This document shows, in pieces, positions 3-16,748 of a DNA stretch of 21,454 nucleotides. The notes below the pieces were generated by a model. That model did no database searches, was not told where the DNA came from, and saw only the letters and a program-made list of their open reading frames with translations. Within the stretch, counting starts at the first letter, position 1; every line of letters starts with the position of its first letter. The position numbers were made by a program, and so were the translations under genes. Origin of the DNA: a virus; the IMG/VR virus record IMGVR_UViG_3300045912_000815, positions 1 to 21,454 of that record, one strand, 5' to 3'.

Positions 3-2963
3 GACGCCTTCGAGCAGATGATGAAAGCGGCCGAGAACGGCCGCGACTTCGAGACGGTGCTGTGCTACGACATCTCGCGCTTCTCGCGCGGCGGCACCAA
101 CGAAACCGGTTATTACTTGCATCGCTTGCAGATGGCCGGCGTTGGCGTAGTATTCACCGCCGAGGGGATTCCCGAAGGCGATGAAGGCGAATTGATTCAA
201 GGCGTTAAGTCCTGGCAAGCGCGGCAGTACTCGATCAAGTTGGCCCGCGATTCCATTCGCGGGCAGTTGTCGAACTTGCGCGAACGCAAAAGCGCTCCGG
301 GTGGCCAACCGCCCTACGGCTACGACAAGCAGCATCTCTCACCCGACGGAAAGGTGCTGCGAACGCTGCGGTGGATGCCGGACAACACCAAGCTGGAAAT
401 CGCGCCCGACGGCACCGTCATCCGCGCCATCGCCAGCGACGTGTTTGTAGCCAAGGCCAAGGGCGACATCGTTCGCCTGGTTCCCAGCACGCCGGATCGC
501 GTGCGGGCGATCCAACGAATGTTCAATCTGTGCGCGCAAGGCTACGGCTACCGGTGCATCGCGCAGCGGATGAACGAAGAAGGCATACCGAGCATGTTCG
601 GCCGTCATTGGAACATGTCGAACATTGCCCAAATGCTTCGCAACCCGGTGTATTGCGGCTCGCTGGTTTACAACAAGCGATCCGAGGGGGCGCTCTTCGG
701 CATGAGCGTGGACGGCATGCTCCGGCCCAAGAAGGGCAAACGGGGTTGCTTCAAGAATGCGCGAGGAGATTGGGTCATCGTTCCCGGCGTTCACGAACCG
801 TTGATCTCGCGGGAAATGTTCGACGCCGCCCAAGCCGCAATGGCCAAACGCCGGTACGCCGGCGGTAAGGCCCGGTCGGTGCGGCGGACTCTGGTCGCGA
901 CTTTGCTGGTCTGCAATCGCTGCGGATCGAGCTTCACCACAATCCGCGACACCCGCCGCAAGCCCGAGTTCGGACCGCCCTACCGCCACTACACCTGCGC
1001 CGGCTACCACCGCTACGGCAAGAAGGTCTGCGGCCTGGTGCGCATTCCCGGCCTGGCCCTCGACGCCTTCGTGCTCAAATTGATCGGCCGCGTGCTCCAG
1101 GGCGACGCCAAGACGCGGAAGCAAGCCATCGAGGCGTTCGTCAAGGCGATGGCACAACCGGCGACGGCGGCGAACGCGCCGGGCATCCGCCGCGAGATCG
1201 AACAATTGGACCGGCGAATCAAAACGACTCTGGCGTTGATCGCCGATCCGACCTTCGACGGCCTGGACGACGTTCCCGCCCTGCTGGCGGATTTGAAACG
1301 CAAGCGCGACACATTGGTCAGTAAGCAGCAGGCCACCGAGTCGGCTGAGCGGCCAGAGATGACGCCGCAGCAACTACGCGAATGGGCTTCGGAGCAATTC
1401 GACAAGCTGGACCGAATGGCCAACAAGGAGGAAGTCGATCTGGCGGATCGGCAGTTGGTCGAGGCGTTCATTCAGCGAATCGAGATCGAACCGGACGCCA
1501 AGACGGGCGTGGTCGTCTTCTACGCCGACTTGCGCTCGGTCCTCTCGTCCACACGGCTACTCGGTGGGGACGACCCGCAAACCGATGAGTCGGCGCGATC
1601 TCTGACCCAGTGCGCCACGCGCGAGAGCGTCTTGGCAGGTGCAGTTCTCGGCCTCGGCGGACCGGGACAGAAGATCTCCGGCATCATGCCGTGCACGGTG
1701 ATCCGTCCGAGCGACATGGCGGACAACATCCTCAACCGCGATCGGCACCCGGAATGGAACGGCGAGCGGACCAAAATGGTCTACTCGTTCCCGACTGACG
1801 AAAAACTCTGGGCCCGCTATGCGGAGATTCGCGCCGAGAGCCTTCGCCACGGCAACGCCGGCGATGAGGCAACCGACTTCTATCGCGAGCATCGTGCGGC
1901 GATGGACGACGGTGCCGTGATCGCCTGGCCAGAACGGTTCAATCACGACGAGCTGTCGGCCATCCAGCACGCGATGAACTTGAAGTTGCAGGACGAGGCG
2001 GCGTTCTTCGCAGAGTACCAGAACGACCCTTTGCCCGAGGAAGTGGCCGAAGCTGACGAACTCACAGCCGACCAAATCGCGGGCAAGTTCAATCGGATGA
2101 AGCGCGGCGATGTGCCGATCGGCTGCAACCATCTGACGATGTTCATCGATGTACAGGCGAACGTGCTATTCTTCGTTGTCGCCGCGTGGGAGGACGACTT
2201 CACCGGATATGTGATTGACTATGGCACTCTCCCCGATCAGAAGCGACCGTATTTCACACTGCGTGATGCGCGGCTCACGTTGGCCAACACCACGCGTGCA
2301 AGCGGGATTGAAGGTGCGATCTATTCTGGGTTGGACTCCGTGACCGGCAGTTACCTCAGCCGCGAATGGCGGCGTGATGACGGCGCGATGCTGCGCATCG
2401 AACGCTGTTTGATCGACGCCAACTGGGGCACGTCCACTGATGTGGTGTACCAGTTCTGCCGGCAGTCGCAGCACGCCGGCATTGTCCTTCCCAGCCACGG
2501 GCGATTCGTTGGTGCTTCGAGCCAGCCATTCAGCGAGTACAAGCGCCGGCCCGGTGACCGCGTTGGCCACAACTGGCGTATGCCCAACGTCCAAGGCAAA
2601 CGATCGGTACGGCACGTCGTTTACGACACCAACTTCTGGAAGTCGTTTGTCCACGCTCGCTTGGCCGTCGCGATGGGGGATCGTGGCTGTCTGTCGCTGT
2701 TCGGTGACAGGCCGGAACACCATCGTCTCTTTGCCGAACACCTCACTTCGGAGTACCGCGTCAAAACCGAGGGACGTGGGCGCACCGTCGACGAATGGAA
2801 GCAACGACCAGAACGCGGCGACAACCATTGGTTCGATGGAATCGTCGGCTGTGCAGTCGCCGCGTCGATACAAGGCTCGGTGTTGCCCGGCACAGATGGT
2901 CAAGCGACAGCGAAGCGAGAGCGCGTCAGCTTCGCCGACTTGCAGCGGAGGGCCAAGCGATGA
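3..2963 (+). CDS. Chimeric ORF: large serine recombinase (5' partial) fused in frame to terminase large subunit C-terminal part
   Basis: The frame is open from base 3, so the true start lies outside the window. The first ~90 codons are the C-terminal part of a resolvase catalytic domain (SRFSR motif near base 75); the nucleophilic serine is off the edge. A recombinase domain follows (about 300-850), then a zinc ribbon (CNRCG near 912 and a second Cys cluster near 1000-1035), then a coiled coil (about 1180-1450). The recombinase family usually ends soon after the RIEIEPD-type segment near 1480. Here translation continues without a stop into a GpA-type terminase from about 1569 (see separate entry). 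Such enzymes integrate and excise elements at att sites. The reading as an element inserted in a terminase gene is inference; a fixed gene fusion or an assembly join is the alternative. Confidence 0.85.
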   Translation, partial: DAFEQMMKAAENGRDFETVLCYDISRFSRGGTNETGYYLHRLQMAGVGVVFTAEGIPEGDEGELIQGVKSWQARQYSIKLARDSIRGQLSNLRERKSAPGGQPPYGYDKQHLSPDGKVLRTLRWMPDNTKLEIAPDGTVIRAIASDVFVAKAKGDIVRLVPSTPDRVRAIQRMFNLCAQGYGYRCIAQRMNEEGIPSMFGRHWNMSNIAQMLRNPVYCGSLVYNKRSEGALFGMSVDGMLRPKKGKRGCFKNARGDWVIVPGVHEPLISREMFDAAQAAMAKRRYAGGKARSVRRTLVATLLVCNRCGSSFTTIRDTRRKPEFGPPYRHYTCAGYHRYGKKVCGLVRIPGLALDAFVLKLIGRVLQGDAKTRKQAIEAFVKAMAQPATAANAPGIRREIEQLDRRIKTTLALIADPTFDGLDDVPALLADLKRKRDTLVSKQQATESAERPEMTPQQLREWASEQFDKLDRMANKEEVDLADRQLVEAFIQRIEIEPDAKTGVVVFYADLRSVLSSTRLLGGDDPQTDESARSLTQCATRESVLAGAVLGLGGPGQKISGIMPCTVIRPSDMADNILNRDRHPEWNGERTKMVYSFPTDEKLWARYAEIRAESLRHGNAGDEATDFYREHRAAMDDGAVIAWPERFNHDELSAIQHAMNLKLQDEAAFFAEYQNDPLPEEVAEADELTADQIAGKFNRMKRGDVPIGCNHLTMFIDVQANVLFFVVAAWEDDFTGYVIDYGTLPDQKRPYFTLRDARLTLANTTRASGIEGAIYSGLDSVTGSYLSREWRRDDGAMLRIERCLIDANWGTSTDVVYQFCRQSQHAGIVLPSHGRFVGASSQPFSEYKRRPGDRVGHNWRMPNVQGKRSVRHVVYDTNFWKSFVHARLAVAMGDRGCLSLFGDRPEHHRLFAEHLTSEYRVKTEGRGRTVDEWKQRPERGDNHWFDGIVGCAVAASIQGSVLPGTDGQATAKRERVSFADLQRRAKR
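1560..1574 (+). other. Probable element/terminase junction (attachment-site half)
   Basis: Recombinase-like sequence ends around LSSTRLLGG and terminase-like sequence begins at DDPQTDES, so the join lies within about 1560-1574, a G-rich stretch containing GGTGGGGACGAC. A serine recombinase gene directly beside one end of its own element is the usual layout. The exact crossover dinucleotide cannot be set without the other end or an intact terminase relative. Confidence 0.4.
1569..2963 (+). pseudogene. Phage terminase large subunit (GpA-like), 5'-truncated: Walker B onward plus nuclease domain
   Basis: This is the C-terminal ~464 codons of the chimeric ORF. It opens with DDPQTDESARS, which matches the region just after the Walker B strand of GpA-family packaging ATPases. 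The nuclease half follows, with FIDVQ near 2142 as a likely first metal-binding aspartate and HWFDGIVG near 2826 as a likely late acidic site. The Walker A part of the ATPase is absent and would be expected upstream of the recombinase element, outside the window. As arranged here, no complete DNA-packaging motor can be made from this copy. No convincing ribosome binding site was seen for a separate internal start (the ATG at 1686 lacks one). Confidence 0.75.
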
Positions 2964-3154: not shown

Positions 3155-3363
3155 AATGCTCCAAGGCACCATTCACTCAAGCCATATTTTCCATCAATCA
3201 GCAAGCCGGACCACTTGGCGTTTCATTCCGTCTGGACGAACGAGCTTGGTTCAACTGCGCACGAGCTTTCTCATCGCACAATCTGTCTGATGAGCTTGTC
3301 TGTAGCATCGAACGGTGCGATCCAACCTACGGCAAGCGATGTGACCGAAGCATCAGGACCTAG
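3155..3363 (+). pseudogene. Possible small gene remnant between terminase module and cargo island
   Basis: AAGGAG at 3141-3146 stands 8 bases before an ATG at 3155, a good translation start, but that frame encodes only 44 residues without recognisable features (stop at 3290). The neighbouring frame, open to 3363, gives a more protein-like stretch with segments such as FSINQQAGPLGVSFRLDER. One explanation is a phage gene with a good start and a shifted frame. The 3' end meets the convergent peptidase gene at 3360. No family is recognised; chance ORFs are quite possible. Confidence 0.25.
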
Positions 3364-4355
3364 TCGCCGCTGTCGTGTCGGTCTTTCGTCCAAGGCGAAT
3401 CGTACTCATCGTCTTCGTCAAGATCGAGACGTCCATCAGGCGAAGTCCCGCCACCGAAGAGCTCGTTATCATCCATCGTAATGAGGACAATGACTGTGTT
3501 CATGAATTTTACGGGCAGATAATGCTCTTTGACTTCAAGGCCTTCGATGTTTGCGGCACGGCCAAACAATGACAACCATTCGGCGGCAAGACCTTTCCGA
3601 CTTACCTTCGCCGAATCTCCGTCGACAAAAGCATTCCATTGCTCTATCGCAAATTCGGACTCCAATTCGCCTTTTCGAGGGTAACAGGACCCGGCAATTA
3701 GTCGATCCGAAGGGAACATCCACGCGACCTCGCCGTTGCGAATGCCTGCAACCGCACATGGGTCTTCCGAAAGGCGAACAATACGAAACGTCGCACAGAC
3801 GGGTGAAACTTGGTAATCGCGGCTCAGTTCGTCCACAAGTTCAAGCGTCGGTCGGGATTGATTCACTCGCCGCCCGACTAGGGAGGTCGGAAGCAAGAGG
3901 CTCGCCGCAAAGGCATCTGCTTCACGTTCGATGCGGCGATTCTGTCGCCGGAACTCGCTTTTTGACGGATGCGTGATTCCGCCGTTCAATAAATAGTCGC
4001 GATGTTCTTCGAGAAAGTAATGTCCAAGCTCGTGGGCAATCGAGAATCGCGTCCGTGGATGGTGCGGTCCATTCGTATAGTCCACGTCATACTTGGTGTT
4101 GTAAAACAACACGAAACGTTGGTGCTGCGGATAATACTTGAGTTTCCCGTCAAAACTGTTTTTGAAATTGCGCCCGCCGGCGCGCAGCCATTCGCTCTCT
4201 GATGCTATGATTTTATGCGGATCAATTTGCCCCTTGTAACCAAGTCGCACTATCAGATCATCGGCGACCCGACCGGCCAGGAACTGTCGATGCCTCTCCT
4301 TCTCCCAGTCAACCTTTGCATCAATCATGGCCATCGTCGCCTTCGGTCTCATCAT
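3360..4355 (-). CDS. ImmA/IrrE-family zinc metallopeptidase
   Basis: This is a 331-residue cytosolic protein (no signal peptide or membrane segment). HELGH at about residues 108-112 provides two zinc ligands and the catalytic glutamate. The downstream EREADAFAASLLLP segment (about 143-156) supplies the likely third ligand, as in the COG2856/ImmA-IrrE family, whose members cleave transcriptional regulators after a stress signal. The C-terminal ~130 residues form an extra domain with an acidic tail. The gene overlaps the end of the acidic-protein gene by about 35 bases if it starts here (AGGA 8 bases upstream). An in-frame ATG at 4334 with AAGG 5 bases upstream is an equal alternative. Its place behind a sigma factor suggests it acts on a regulator of that sigma factor; this is inference. 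Confidence 0.85.
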   Translation of the reverse strand: MMRPKATMAMIDAKVDWEKERHRQFLAGRVADDLIVRLGYKGQIDPHKIIASESEWLRAGGRNFKNSFDGKLKYYPQHQRFVLFYNTKYDVDYTNGPHHPRTRFSIAHELGHYFLEEHRDYLLNGGITHPSKSEFRRQNRRIEREADAFAASLLLPTSLVGRRVNQSRPTLELVDELSRDYQVSPVCATFRIVRLSEDPCAVAGIRNGEVAWMFPSDRLIAGSCYPRKGELESEFAIEQWNAFVDGDSAKVSRKGLAAEWLSLFGRAANIEGLEVKEHYLPVKFMNTVIVLITMDDNELFGGGTSPDGRLDLDEDDEYDSPWTKDRHDSGD

Positions 4356-4683
4356 TCAGGAGTTCCTGTTCAAGCTCTGCCTCAAGTCGCTCTGTCTCTT
4401 CGTCGCCCTCTCCTTCATTGCGGAACATTGCAGCACATTCGGCATTGATCTCTTGATTCAGCGGTTTTCGATTCTGGAGCGTTGATGGTTCAGTAGTTTG
4501 GATTGGCGATTCTTCCGAGACCATTTTTTCTACGATCGCGGCCATCTCTTCATCAGTAAGTGGAATTGCTTTCGTGTTCTTGAAGGCTTCAGCCGCTTCT
4601 TCTGGTGTGGGGGGACATAGCCCCTTCTTTTTTCGGAGCTTGTTCGCGACTAGGTCCCACACCTTGTCAGCGTCAGTGCTCAT
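4321..4683 (-). CDS. Small acidic protein between sigma factor and metallopeptidase
   Basis: The product is 120 residues long, starting at an ATG that overlaps the sigma-factor stop (ATGA). No family is recognised. It is strongly acidic towards the C-terminus (many Glu and Asp after about residue 85), with a short basic patch KLRKKK near residue 17 and a likely helical, partly disordered remainder. There is no signal peptide or membrane helix. Position and size make it a candidate regulator of the sigma factor, for example an anti-sigma factor or a substrate of the neighbouring peptidase, but nothing in the sequence proves this. A longer reading of the frame, upstream to 4794, would lie inside the sigma gene and is less likely. 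Confidence 0.65.
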   Translation of the reverse strand: MSTDADKVWDLVANKLRKKKGLCPPTPEEAAEAFKNTKAIPLTDEEMAAIVEKMVSEESPIQTTEPSTLQNRKPLNQEINAECAAMFRNEGEGDEETERLEAELEQELLNDETEGDDGHD

Positions 4684-5303
4684 GTTCTGCCTTTCTCGCG
4701 GTCTCGTTGTTTTTCTGCCGCAATTAAGATCTCCTGAAACTTCTTCTTGATCGTACATTTCGCAACGTCGAAATCGTTGCGAGTTTTGCCCCACGCTTTC
4801 ATGAGGTTGGCGGCGTCAATGTTGCCGCTAGTTATTACATATTCACGTGCCACGGCTTGCTTGAAATCCTTGAGCTTATTTTCGATGAAGTCATCAAGAA
4901 TCTTTGTGCGCCAGTCTTTCTTGCCATCGTCTTCGCACTCCGTTGGCGGGGGGGGATAGAAGACCGGTTCGTCGGTAAACAATTCGAAGGTTCGCTGGTC
5001 CTTTGCCGAGCACATGTCGAGAGCGACGTTGTAGGCCAAGCGGATCATCCAGGCCTCAAATGTCGCCTTCTTTCGATTGAACGACCCAATGTATTTCAGC
5101 ATCTTGACGAACGCGTTTTGCACAGCGTCTTCGACACTGTGATGTTTCAAGACGTCACCGAAGTGTTTCGTCAAATAGCCCTTTAGCTTGGGTCCATACC
5201 TGGTGACAAGTGTAGTCGCGGCGGTTTGGTCCTTGTAGGCAGCGACTCGCAACGCCAAGGATTCGTCGTCGTCCTCATCGTCCTGCGATGCCGTTTGCCC
5301 CAT
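4680..5303 (-). CDS. ECF-type sigma-70 family RNA polymerase sigma factor
   Basis: This 207-residue protein has an acidic N-terminal tail (residues 8-14), then a sigma region 2 (about 18-105). Region 2 includes HSVEDAVQNAFVKMLKYIGSF and the Trp/Arg-rich TFEAWMIRLAYNVALDMC, typical of the core-binding and -10-recognition helices. A Pro-rich linker follows (PPPP near 117), then a poorly conserved region 4 (about 130-195). Region 3 is absent, as in ECF sigma factors. AAGGAGG lies 5 bases before the ATG, a strong ribosome binding site. It is first in a three-gene operon with the acidic protein and the ImmA-like peptidase. The diverged region 4 suggests an unusual promoter; the composite motif just upstream is a candidate target. 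Confidence 0.8.
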   Translation of the reverse strand: MGQTASQDDEDDDESLALRVAAYKDQTAATTLVTRYGPKLKGYLTKHFGDVLKHHSVEDAVQNAFVKMLKYIGSFNRKKATFEAWMIRLAYNVALDMCSAKDQRTFELFTDEPVFYPPPPTECEDDGKKDWRTKILDDFIENKLKDFKQAVAREYVITSGNIDAANLMKAWGKTRNDFDVAKCTIKKKFQEILIAAEKQRDREKGRT

Positions 5304-5328
5304 GCCGGCCTCCTTCGGCCTGATGGTA

Positions 5329-5351
5329 GGAATACTTCTGCGTCTTAATCA
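5329..5351 (-). promoter_or_regulatory. Composite motif facing the sigma-factor operon
   Basis: Read on the minus strand, this is TGATTAAGACGCA (5351-5339), three bases, then GTATTCC (5335-5329). It ends 25 bases before the sigma-factor ATG. An identical motif with identical internal spacing faces the ubiquitin-like operon at 5403-5425. The distance would suit a promoter with a short leader holding the AAGGAGG site, or an operator for a shared regulator. Which part would be -35 or -10 cannot be decided by eye. Confidence 0.6.
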
Positions 5352-5377
5352 CGGCCCAAGAATTCTTTGATTTTCCC

Positions 5378-5389
5378 CGACGAACGTCG
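5378..5389. repeat. Short palindrome between the two divergent motifs
   Basis: CGACG, two bases, CGTCG lies between the paired motifs. A second perfect 10-base palindrome, AAGAATTCTT, is at 5358-5367. Either could be an operator for a dimeric protein; both are short enough to arise by chance. Confidence 0.3.
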
Positions 5390-5402
5390 ATTCTTCAGAT
5401 TC

Positions 5403-5425
5403 TGATTAAGACGCACTGGTATTCC
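5403..5425 (+). promoter_or_regulatory. Composite motif facing the ubiquitin-like operon
   Basis: TGATTAAGACGCA (5403-5415), three variable bases, then GTATTCC (5419-5425), the same as the minus-strand copy at 5351-5329. Only the three spacer bases differ (ctg here, gaa there). It lies 94 bases before the start of the ubiquitin-like gene. Twenty matching bases at fixed spacing in inverted arrangement between two divergent operons strongly suggest a shared regulator or sigma factor. Confidence 0.6.
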
Positions 5426-5454
5426 CTGCAGGTCCGGCTAACAACGCTAGGCCG

Positions 5455-5480
5455 CCACCGTTTTACTGAAAAAACGGTGG
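5455..5480 (+). promoter_or_regulatory. Perfect 10-bp stem-loop in the leader of the ubiquitin-like operon
   Basis: CCACCGTTTT, a six-base loop, then AAAACGGTGG form a perfect stem. No T-run follows, so it is not a standard terminator in the plus direction. It falls within the presumed leader between the motif at 5403 and the start codon, so it may act as an attenuator, an RNA-stability element or a DNA operator. Confidence 0.45.
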
Positions 5481-5491
5481 ACCATCAAACC

Positions 5492-5511
5492 GTCGCAACC
5501 TGCGACAGGAG
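5492..5511 (+). promoter_or_regulatory. Small hairpin abutting the ribosome binding site of the ubiquitin-like gene
   Basis: GTCGCA, ACC, TGCGAC form a 6-bp stem with a 3-base loop at 5492-5506, immediately followed by AGGAG at 5507-5511, 8 bases before the ATG at 5520. Placing a hairpin directly against the ribosome binding site may influence its access; the role is inferred. Confidence 0.4.
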
Positions 5512-5519
5512 AATGCCTT

Positions 5520-5813
5520 ATGCTGGAACATGACCAAAGCCGTGGTGAACGCGGCCACGAGGTCGATCACCACGGCCATCGTGAGGACGAATGTCCCCGG
5601 CAGGTCACCATCATCGTCGATACGGTGACGATCCACCTCCACCCCGGCCGCTACGACCTTGAAACGATCAAGCGGTTGTCGAAAGTTCCACTTTCCGACG
5701 AACTTGATGAACTGGTCGGCACCAAACTGGTGCCGCTGCCGGACGACAAACCGGTCGTGATTAAGGGCTGTGAAATTTTCGCTTCTCATCCGAAGAGCGG
5801 GGGAGCGTCGTGA
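5520..5813 (+). CDS. Ubiquitin-like (beta-grasp) protein
   Basis: The product is 97 residues long. After a charged, His-rich, likely disordered N-terminus (about 1-26), residues 27-90 look like a single beta-grasp fold: TIIVDTVTIHLHPGRYDLETIKRL gives strand, strand and helix, followed by VPLPDDKPVVIKGCEIF-type strands. The C-terminus reads SGGAS, a Gly-Gly pair followed by two residues, as in ubiquitin-like precursors that need trimming before activation. It is first in a four-gene operon with E2-like, JAB-like and E1-like genes, a layout known from bacterial ubiquitin-like conjugation systems (Bil/Bub-type and multi-ubiquitin types). By analogy it would be attached to target proteins, possibly phage structural ones. 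The family call rests largely on context. Confidence 0.75.
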   Translation: MLEHDQSRGERGHEVDHHGHREDECPRQVTIIVDTVTIHLHPGRYDLETIKRLSKVPLSDELDELVGTKLVPLPDDKPVVIKGCEIFASHPKSGGAS

Positions 5814-6154
5814 CGTCGTTCCCCGAGGACCAAGTGGCAGAGCTTCGGCAACTCTGCCCAGGTCTTCAATCTGCGCCGGAGGGCGACAATATCCTGTACT
5901 CGCTGCCGAAACTTTCGTTGCATGAGGGCTGCACGCCGGCCGCGGTCGACGCACTGCTTTGTCCGTTTGAACGTGAGGGCTATCCCTTTCGACTCTATTT
6001 CGCCGAGCTGATTGCCGCGCCGGTCAAGCTCAATTGGAACACAACAGGCTGCCGCATTCTGGAACGAAATTGGTTCGCATTCTCCTGGAAAGTGCCGGGT
6101 GATTTGCGACTCATCCAAATGGTGGCGGCTCTTTTGAGGGTAATGGTCCCATGA
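5810..6154 (+). CDS. E2-like (UBC-fold) conjugating protein, prokaryotic type
   Basis: This 114-residue protein starts at GTG in a GTGA overlap with the upstream gene; GGGGGAG lies just before it. The segment from about 58 (YPFRLYFAELI...NWN) to about 110 (RNWFAFSWKVPGDLRLIQMVAALLR) resembles the strand-and-helix end of prokaryotic E2-family proteins encoded beside JAB and E1 genes. Four cysteines occur (16, 41, 51, 81). Cys81, in TGCRILERNWFAF, is the most plausible thioester site by position, but this is not certain and some prokaryotic E2 families lack a catalytic cysteine. It would take the ubiquitin-like protein from the E1 and pass it to the target. Confidence 0.7.
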   Translation: MTSFPEDQVAELRQLCPGLQSAPEGDNILYSLPKLSLHEGCTPAAVDALLCPFEREGYPFRLYFAELIAAPVKLNWNTTGCRILERNWFAFSWKVPGDLRLIQMVAALLRVMVP

Positions 6155-6651
6155 CGCCACTGATACGAATTACAAGGTCGCTCTACGATGCGGTTCAAGT
6201 CGATTTGCGCAGGCCGCATCCGTTCGCTGGCGAACGGGTCGGATTTCTTTATGGCCGTCTCGCCAATTCCGCGACTGATAGGCCGTTGGTGTTGATTACG
6301 GCTTATACGCCACTTGACGACGATCGTTACCTTCCTGATCCGACGGTGGGCGCCAGAATTGATAGCCAAGCGATCCGTTCCGCGATGCAGGGCGTGATCG
6401 ACCGCAACGAAGGTTGCTTCCACGTTCACATCCACGCCTGGCCCGGAAGTCCTCGCTTTGGCATGACCGATTTGGCCGAGTTGCCCCGGCTCGTTCCGAG
6501 CTTTCAAACCGTTGGACAGCATCATGCTCATGGATTGTTCCTGCTGTCCGACGACTTGGCCTATGCGGATGTTTGGCTTCCTGGCCAACGCGAGCCGGTC
6601 GCGGGCCGGCTCAACATCGTGGGATTCCCTTTGACCCTGATTGGAGCTTGA
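6151..6651 (+). CDS. JAB/MPN (JAMM) metallopeptidase-like protein, likely deubiquitinase/processing enzyme
   Basis: The product is 166 residues long, with an ATGA overlap with the E2-like gene. The JAMM elements are visible: Glu28 (GERVGFLYG), the HxH zinc ligands His93 and His95, and Asp107 in HIHAWPGSPRFGMTD. In relatives the residue three before this Asp is usually Ser; here it is Gly104, so activity may be altered. Length fits a stand-alone prokaryotic JAB domain. Expected roles are trimming the two residues after Gly-Gly from the ubiquitin-like precursor and removing it from targets. There is no signal peptide, so it should act in the cytosol with the rest of the operon. Confidence 0.8.
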   Translation: MTPLIRITRSLYDAVQVDLRRPHPFAGERVGFLYGRLANSATDRPLVLITAYTPLDDDRYLPDPTVGARIDSQAIRSAMQGVIDRNEGCFHVHIHAWPGSPRFGMTDLAELPRLVPSFQTVGQHHAHGLFLLSDDLAYADVWLPGQREPVAGRLNIVGFPLTLIGA

Positions 6652-15550: not shown

Positions 15551-15762
15551 TCATGGCCGAGGCCAAGAACCGGCAAGCCTGGGCGCACACCTCGGCGCTC
15601 TTGGCATTGATCGCCAACTGTCACCGCGATCCAAAGAAGACACGGCCGTTCCAGCCGGCCGACTTTCATCCGCACGAAAAACACCGCAAGCCCACCCCGA
15701 TGAAGGTCGGCATCGCAGTCTTGAAGCAAGTGTTCGTTGAACGTCCGGTTGCCAAAGGATGA
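15547..15762 (+). CDS. Tail assembly chaperone partner (gpT-like)
   Basis: The product is 71 residues long from GTG 15547, which overlaps the gpG-like stop (GTGA); an ATG at 15553 is the alternative. Coding-like sequence in this frame begins earlier, from about 15469 (LVWELAGVVGIDPGPFTLREL), so the real product may be a frameshifted fusion with gpG rather than an independent protein. AWAHTSALLALIANCHRDPKKTRPFQPADFHP is the recognisable core of such chaperone extensions. It would bridge tape measure and tube subunits. Confidence 0.65.
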   Translation: MIMAEAKNRQAWAHTSALLALIANCHRDPKKTRPFQPADFHPHEKHRKPTPMKVGIAVLKQVFVERPVAKG

Positions 15763-16748
15763 TGGAACCGATCGCTAATCAGGATGGGATTTTGTCCGAT
15801 GCGAACGCCAGCACTCCGCTGGCCAGCAAGCGCAATCGACTGCGGTCGATTGTGGAAAAGCTGGGCCCGACGGCTTCATCAGCAGACATCCGCCAGGAGG
15901 CATATCGCGTCGGATTCGGCGTTGTTAGTAGCAGCATGTTGGTCCATGTGCGCAACGAGCTTTGGCCGGACCGCCCGCGCCGTGCTGGTCGCCGATCGGC
16001 CAGCTACGACGCGACGGCCATGCACTTGCCCGAGTCCGTGGACGGGTTGCCGCGCTGTCCTTCCTGCGACTCAACGGAATTACGAGTGCGTCAAGTCGCA
16101 CGGTTGGGTGATGGGATGGCTCGTCGCGGCCGCGTGTGCAAATCGTGTGGAGAGCGATGGCAATCGATCGAGCCGGTCGAAAGGACCCAAATGCATGTCC
16201 GACGCCGCAAGGCGATGTTGGCCACGCAGAAACAATGTTCGACCTGTCGCCGTACCCTGCCGGTCGCCGCCTTCTCAAAAAAGGCCAACGACGTGCATTT
16301 GTACCGCTCAAGCTGCCGAGAGTGCCTTAACCAGAAACGCGCCGATCTTTATCTGAAGCGATTATTGAACGGATACTGTTGGAGCCTGGATCAGTACCTG
16401 GCGCTCTTTGACCGACAACACGGCCGCTGCGCTATTTGCGGCGAGAATGGTTTCGATGGCCTAGGACGGTCGATCCGCCCTTGCCGATTCCTGTGCATCG
16501 ATCACAGTCATGTGACCGGCCGCATTCGTGGATTGCTCTGCGATAAATGCAACTTGGGAATCGGCAACTTCAACGACGATCCACAACGGCTGCACCGTGC
16601 GGCAATGTACCTGCGCCGCGCTCGTAGTGCAGTGGACCAAGATTACCCCTCATTGAGAAAGGAGGGACTCTGTCATGGCAGCCACTGCGAGCGGCATCCG
16701 TGCGGGGTCGGCGTTTCGTCGAACTCTACGTCAAAGACAACCGACTGA
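15759..16748 (+). CDS. Winged-helix / zinc-ribbon / endonuclease VII-like HNH protein
   Basis: The product is 329 residues long, with an ATGA overlap with the gpT-like gene. Three parts are visible: a helix-turn-helix-like N-terminus (about 22-75), an NrdR-style zinc ribbon (about 98-140, CPSC ... CKSC), and a recombination endonuclease VII domain (about 155-290) with CSTC/CREC and CAIC/CDKC zinc pairs and the catalytic DHSH. Enzymes of this family cut branched DNA and help trim DNA before packaging. The last ~35 residues overlap the next gene's ribosome binding site and start and look non-native, so the original stop may have been lost by a frame change. Confidence 0.8.
   Translation: MMEPIANQDGILSDANASTPLASKRNRLRSIVEKLGPTASSADIRQEAYRVGFGVVSSSMLVHVRNELWPDRPRRAGRRSASYDATAMHLPESVDGLPRCPSCDSTELRVRQVARLGDGMARRGRVCKSCGERWQSIEPVERTQMHVRRRKAMLATQKQCSTCRRTLPVAAFSKKANDVHLYRSSCRECLNQKRADLYLKRLLNGYCWSLDQYLALFDRQHGRCAICGENGFDGLGRSIRPCRFLCIDHSHVTGRIRGLLCDKCNLGIGNFNDDPQRLHRAAMYLRRARSAVDQDYPSLRKEGLCHGSHCERHPCGVGVSSNSTSKTTD
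16675..16719 (+). other. Displaced N-terminus of the tape-measure gene (other frame)
   Basis: GGAGG at 16661-16665 with 9 bases to the ATG at 16675 is the expected start. It encodes MAATASGIRAGSAF, then the frame becomes unlike the family. Coding continues one frame over as FVELYVKDNR. A single extra base near 16717 (or a +1 shift at TTT-C) joins them. Confidence 0.55.

Follow-up and report, generated by a model that had tools for sequence, protein, structure and literature searches.

Does a short motif that lies twice between the divergent operons of a viral genome island act as one shared control, and which protein would read it? The island belongs to an IMG/VR contig with a terminase, portal, capsid and tail gene cluster, and is located between the terminase and the portal. 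The whole stretch analyzed (21,454 bases, hereafter the window) carries the following island features:

3360–4355, minus strand: CapP-type ImmA/IrrE (M78) metallopeptidase with an HELGH motif (Pfam M78, 1.7e-14)
4321–4683, minus strand: small acidic helical protein, 120 aa, its start overlapping the sigma stop
4680–5303, minus strand: ECF-like sigma factor, 207 aa (Pfam Sigma70_r2, PF04542, 5.8e-12)
5329–5351, minus strand: sigma-operon-facing site, TGATTAAGACGCA-GAA-GTATTCC (boxes TTAAG 5348–5344 and AGTAT 5336–5332)
5403–5425, plus strand: Ubl-operon-facing site, TGATTAAGACGCA-CTG-GTATTCC (boxes TTAAG 5406–5410 and GGTAT 5418–5422)
5455–5480, plus strand: perfect hairpin of 10 bp within the 94-nt Ubl-operon leader (leader fold z = -2.9)
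5520–5813, plus strand: single-domain ubiquitin-like protein (Ubl), C-terminus ...SHPKSGGAS, aligning with the last domain of multiubiquitin proteins
5810–6154, plus strand: E2-like small protein (28–36% identity to its multiubiquitin-operon equivalent, 55% to that of locus L018)
6151–6651, plus strand: JAB/JAMM-type isopeptidase (37–41% identity to plasmid equivalents)
6641–7456, plus strand: ThiF/E1-type activating enzyme (Pfam ThiF, 3e-25; 43–63% identity to relatives)

Two Motif Copies Face the Two Operons

The composite motif TGATTAAGACGCA-N3-GTATTCC was found exactly twice in the window, one copy per strand and each reading outward, with 20 of 23 bases and the internal spacing equal between the copies. 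The preliminary description of this DNA had placed one copy on each strand, each directed towards one operon, and the positions that it gave (5403–5425 on the plus strand, 5351–5329 on the minus strand) were exact. No third copy with up to three mismatches was detected in the 21,454 bases, the expectation from 100 dinucleotide shuffles being 0.00. Scored as an ungapped divergent pair, the motifs reached 17.6, compared with 8.4 ± 1.0 in shuffled sequence, and none of 40 shuffles attained 17.6. The minus-strand copy ends 25 nt upstream of the sigma ATG (5303) and the plus-strand copy 94 nt upstream of the Ubl ATG (5520). Neither a sigma-70 promoter nor an Rfam RNA was found at the motif site. 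An exact-motif search did not detect the motif elsewhere in IMG/VR, and in the window's own record the pair accounts for all copies.

The leader of the Ubl operon (5426–5519, plus strand, about 94 nt) folds better than its shuffles. Leaders of about 80–95 nt with hairpin-forming repeats were also observed in the related loci L013 and L018.

Genes of the Island

The predicted sigma factor matched ECF sigma factors in the PDB (best 2q1z, 4.2e-12), and the structural model together with the fold matches indicated a layout of region 2, a flexible linker and a four-helix C-terminal part. In this model, of modest confidence (pLDDT 72.8), a disordered linker separates four helices at the N-terminus from four at the C-terminus. 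Its Foldseek matches were ECF sigma factors, on which region 2 superposed at 2.4–3.9 Å; against whole ECF sigma chains about 185 columns were aligned, with a poor overall rmsd. No Pfam match to sigma region 4 was obtained in the protein.

Sequence and fold searches with the small acidic protein gave nothing usable: no family or database entry, no known anti-sigma fold and no HTH family was matched, and its model of five helices (low confidence, pLDDT 68.6) had no fold match. Homologues were detected in L013, L018, L098, L099, L119–L123 and L127, and in L013 and L127 this domain is fused to the peptidase. The protein is a candidate for both sigma inhibitor and peptidase substrate. The peptidase itself was assigned to capP by PADLOC (3.7e-40), and a profile of its planctomycete relatives had CapP (7t5t, 7.1e-14) as its best PDB match, so by homology it is a predicted CapP; its start may be an internal ATG.

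Within the Ubl operon only the ThiF protein gave a Pfam match, the other products aligning with multiubiquitin operons of rhizobial plasmids. The window Ubl is 44–53% identical over 75–87 aa to the Ubl frames of L014, L018 and L013, and the JAB protein shares the invariant residues E28, H91, H93, H95 and D107 with its plasmid equivalents. As the Ubl, E2-like, JAB and ThiF/E1 genes all occur together, the gene content assigns the predicted conjugation operon to a known, Bub-like kind. Phage defence by Bub operons is unproven in general (PMC13373217).

Two further frames of the contig were recorded. A 981-aa frame (18–2963, plus strand) joins a serine integrase (phrog_95, residues 1–499) to the C-terminal part of a terminase large subunit (514–953) and is without a complete terminase N-terminal ATPase part; it may represent a fusion, an integrase insertion into the terminase gene or an assembly effect. 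Inside the tail gene cluster, an Endonuclease VII-like protein with an NrdR-like zinc ribbon is encoded (15759–16748, plus strand).

A Sigma Factor in the Place of CapH

In the plasmid relatives of the conjugation operon, an HTH gene and an ImmA/IrrE gene were found divergent from the multiubiquitin-hyp-hyp-ThiF genes. A wider survey of the regulators beside such operons used an E1 profile: run against 84,980 species genomes it returned 80 loci, and with those on plasmids the survey comprised 88. In 80 of these the sequence upstream of E1 extends for 3.3 kb or more. Of the 88 loci examined, 52 have an M78 peptidase in divergent orientation no more than 4 kb away, and an XRE gene adjoins or is fused to 44 of the 53 minus-strand M78 genes; the HTH and M78 assignments were automated and made with self-built profiles. 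This arrangement of M78 and XRE genes (CapH+CapP) has been described for CBASS and Bub operons (PMC13373217).

The relative with the highest E1 identity (L014, 63%) carries XRE and ImmA genes. L013 (Zavarzinella formosa) and L018 (Planctomycetota SZAS-6) carry a sigma factor and a small protein of the window type where most others carry XRE, which shows that the sigma/small-protein pair occupies the CapH slot. Thus, most relatives of the window's conjugation operon have CapP with the XRE repressor CapH, and in the window the sigma factor replaces CapH.

The Sigma Module and Its Cargo in Planctomycetota

Genome searches detected the sigma/small protein/ImmA-IrrE peptidase unit in 17 further planctomycete loci, which with the window gives 18 loci with the sigma gene. 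Beyond L013 and L018, the units were detected with profiles of the small protein and the peptidase, and a small-protein homologue was detectable in most. Sigma matches on Burkholderia and Caballeronia plasmids were discarded as ordinary ECF genes outside the module context. No relative of the window sigma or E1 was found in IMG/VR, and no E1 in phage records. Facing or neighbouring the module were ubiquitin-like conjugation operons, CBASS and one 6A-MBL-like operon, distributed as follows:

Window, L013 and L018: the same Ubl operon (Ubl/E2/JAB/E1)
L124: another multiubiquitin/E2/JAB-ThiF operon
L098: operon with a UvrD-like helicase facing the site; a Ubl/E2/JAB-E1 operon lies on the opposite flank
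L128: multiubiquitin-like gene downstream, same strand
L129: MBL and an E2-E1-JAB-patatin protein
L131: ThiF and a small Ubl-like protein
L123: CBASS cyclase, E2 and phospholipase
L125: CBASS cyclase and phospholipase
L127: CBASS cyclase
L099, L119 and L120: DUF2188, with a type I restriction R subunit next in one case

The conserved gene order and the fusion of small-protein domain and peptidase in two genomes support the sigma factor, small protein and peptidase as one unit, and the cargo supports an association of this module with defence operons.

In L099, L119, L120 and L127 the operon that faces the sigma site encodes a small DUF2188 protein at its start or close to it, which hints at a place for DUF2188 in defence regulation. 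Additionally, UvrD-like helicase genes lie beside Ubl operons in L008 and L011 (Rhizobium and Bosea plasmids, with a PD-(D/E)XK nuclease) and in the planctomycete L098, suggesting a functional link between the two.

Geometry of the Sites

The preliminary description had read the motif as a regulatory site shared by both operons, a reading to be abandoned if relatives lacked it. A divergent pair of the form NTNAS-N7-(C)GTAT was present between the sigma gene and the facing operon in 14 of the 18 sigma loci, and the reading survived. In 13 loci the 220 bp before sigma contain such a pair, with five bases identical, the next seven variable and NGTA after them; L129, with the second box CATAT in the same geometry, is the fourteenth. 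Any such pair, even with one mismatch, was obtained in 0–16% of shuffles, typically in 0–7% and mostly in less than 5%. In L122 the sigma-side site is normal and the cargo-side site reads TTAAG-N18-GTATT (4000–4130), ten bases over the usual N8, which suggests that helical phase matters. The diverged members L132 and L133 each have only one site, directed towards sigma, and in L128 the genes are present and no site was found.

Over 31 aligned sites, information was confined to positions 0–5 ([GT]TNASG) and 12–16 (CGTAT). The second box, CGTAT, resembles the -10 element of ECF promoters (CGTA of SigW and SigX). The spacer between the boxes is 7 bp in these sites, compared with 16–17 bp in ECF promoters, about one helical turn less, and no conserved -35 or -10 partner at the canonical 16–17 bp was found for either half in the 31 sites. 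In most loci the site ends about 20–50 nt before sigma. The gap between the paired sites varies from 22 to 129 nt, which argues for two independent sites rather than one composite operator.

The first box differs by clade (TTAAG, GTAAG, GTAAC, GTGAG or GTCAC), and within each locus both sides carry the same version. Its differences between loci follow sigma similarity (Mantel r = 0.53, reached in 0 of 5000 permutations), a correlation to which common ancestry contributes. In each of three whole genomes (10.1, 4.8 and 3.4 Mb) the locus-specific site matched only twice, at the pair, so the regulon would consist of the two divergent operons. This restriction to the locus and the recurrence in relatives strongly support a regulatory site common to both operons, which are very probably under shared, dedicated control.

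Weak extra conservation of G was also seen on both sides at positions +25 to +28 from the first box in the 31 sites; these residues could mark the transcript start region.

Proposed Circuit and Alternative Explanations

Within the unit, only the sigma factor belongs to a recognised DNA-binding family, and the box co-varies among its relatives; for these reasons it is probably the reader, and the sites its promoters. In the full circuit, which is considered moderately likely, one dedicated ECF-like sigma factor would read both sites as outward-facing promoters, one for the sigma/small-protein/CapP operon and the other for the ubiquitin-like conjugation operon. In the resting state the sigma factor would be held by the small acidic protein. 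CapP would be activated by a signal, which is probably, as in the known CapP and PprI/IrrE cases, ssDNA produced by DNA damage or infection, and would then cleave the small protein; the freed sigma factor would then transcribe both operons, with positive feedback on its own. The unit would thus be a sigma-based substitute for the CapH repressor of CapH+CapP controllers. Precedents exist for the individual steps: CapP is activated by ssDNA and cleaves CapH (PMC13373217), PprI is activated by ssDNA (PMC10904395), and CalpL cuts the anti-sigma factor CalpT, freeing CalpS (PMC12751052).

The role of the small protein as an inhibitor removed by CapP is the tentative part of this circuit, with a chance slightly under one half. 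The two small-protein/peptidase fusions helped the idea of cleavage, and fit an adaptor or sensor equally well as a substrate. The sigma factor and its two promoters may therefore be correctly read while CapP turns over sigma itself, or while the small protein serves as an adaptor or chaperone; the lack of a known anti-sigma fold agrees with this, and the roles are not readable from the gene order alone. Small acidic genes that overlap a sigma gene, however, commonly encode anti-sigma factors. The three-gene logic is, moreover, like that of Calp (PMC12751052) and RseA-type circuits, and such other roles are considered somewhat unlikely.

The 7-bp spacer leaves a place for a different reading, in which the sites are operators and a sigma-like or other DNA-binding protein represses both operons until CapP destroys it, like CapH. 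Normal sigma contacts would need more than the 12-nt start-to-start spacing, a repressor is the normal target of CapP (PMC13373217), and the CapH-type loci L009 and L014 have inverted pairs in the same place. By contrast, the sites are non-palindromic, outward-facing and placed where a -10 element is expected, the protein has a recognisable sigma region 2 and the small protein matches no HTH family, all of which make repression at operators a distinctly unlikely explanation. Finally, although the island lies in a phage record beside the integrase-terminase fusion, it is extremely improbable that the pair arose by chance or as a side effect of mobile DNA (recombination or attachment arms), as one geometry recurs in 14 loci, nearly all of them in bacterial genome contigs, with a locus-specific sequence between sigma and the facing operon.

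Comparison with Known Systems

The preferred reading, a sigma factor released at two promoters, has counterparts among several known controllers. CapH+CapP controllers of CBASS, Bub and other defence operons share with the window a CapP-family M78 peptidase and the divergent position before the conjugation or CBASS operon. They differ in the XRE repressor CapH, whereas the window has a sigma factor and a small acidic protein and no XRE gene, which makes activation, rather than derepression, the probable mode of control. The Calp system of type III CRISPR (CalpL-CalpT-CalpS) has the protease/anti-sigma/sigma logic for a transcriptional phage response that is proposed here. Its protease is a SAVED-Lon protein with a cA4 sensor; the window peptidase is M78 only, without a cA4 sensor, and the operons to be switched on adjoin the window module.

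Local two-promoter control upstream of Bub, CBASS and R-M operons, as in the window, is also exerted by CapK+CapS and CapW/BrxR, but through kinase/STAS or WYL repressors, with no sigma factor or peptidase. The IrrE/PprI-DdrO and ImmA-ImmR pairs likewise couple an M78 peptidase to a transcription regulator; their targets are repressors, whereas the target proposed for the window is a sigma inhibitor. As for the cargo, Bub/multiubiquitin operons of rhizobial plasmids and planctomycetes have the same Ubl, E2-like, JAB and ThiF order, the window differing in its single-domain Ubl and its position within a phage structural gene cluster.

The unit is not a member of the CapH+CapP group, since it has no CapH, nor of Calp, since it has no Lon-SAVED protein; it is a sigma-based variant of the known CapH+CapP controllers, Calp-like in logic. 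No description of a sigma/CapP pairing was found in the part of the open literature covered, and the kit appears to be a so far undescribed switch that turns on antiviral genes purely locally. From the circuit sketched in the preliminary description, one defence-associated unit of sigma factor, small protein and ImmA-like peptidase under shared control has stood, and the claim of a "new type" of defence system was too strong, because the Bub-like operon, CapP and the Calp-type logic are all known. What is new is a controller that has a sigma factor where CapH would stand.

Possible Counterparts outside Planctomycetes

Among the E1 loci, a sigma-sized gene in the place of the regulator, with M78 and without XRE, was also found in L020 and L034 (Verrucomicrobiota), L025 and L063 (Bacteroidota) and L072 (Acidobacteriota), with a small frame before the peptidase in most of them. 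A sigma profile gave moderate support in L025 (1.6e-7), weak support in L072 (0.0018) and none in L020, L034 and L063. L025 and L072 have strong inverted pairs whose internal spacing is longer and nearer to that of ordinary ECF promoters. These loci are leads to sigma counterparts outside planctomycetes. The chances are finely balanced for the broader view that the controller has been swapped among Ubl-conjugation, CBASS and other operons of Planctomycetota, with likely counterparts in Verrucomicrobiota, Bacteroidota and Acidobacteriota and a planctomycete promoter type with a 7-bp spacer.

Meaning for the Control of Antiviral Operons

An active question is what keeps toxic antiviral operons off until they are needed; the controllers known so far act as repressors. 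If the proposed circuit is true, a CapP wired to a sigma factor would constitute an activator-type switch with built-in positive feedback and a regulon of two promoters, and CapP can be re-plugged to another kind of transcription regulator. Operons near such modules would be predicted as defence genes. Furthermore, if the 7-bp spacer belongs to a true promoter, the accepted promoter geometry of the sigma-70 family would be challenged.
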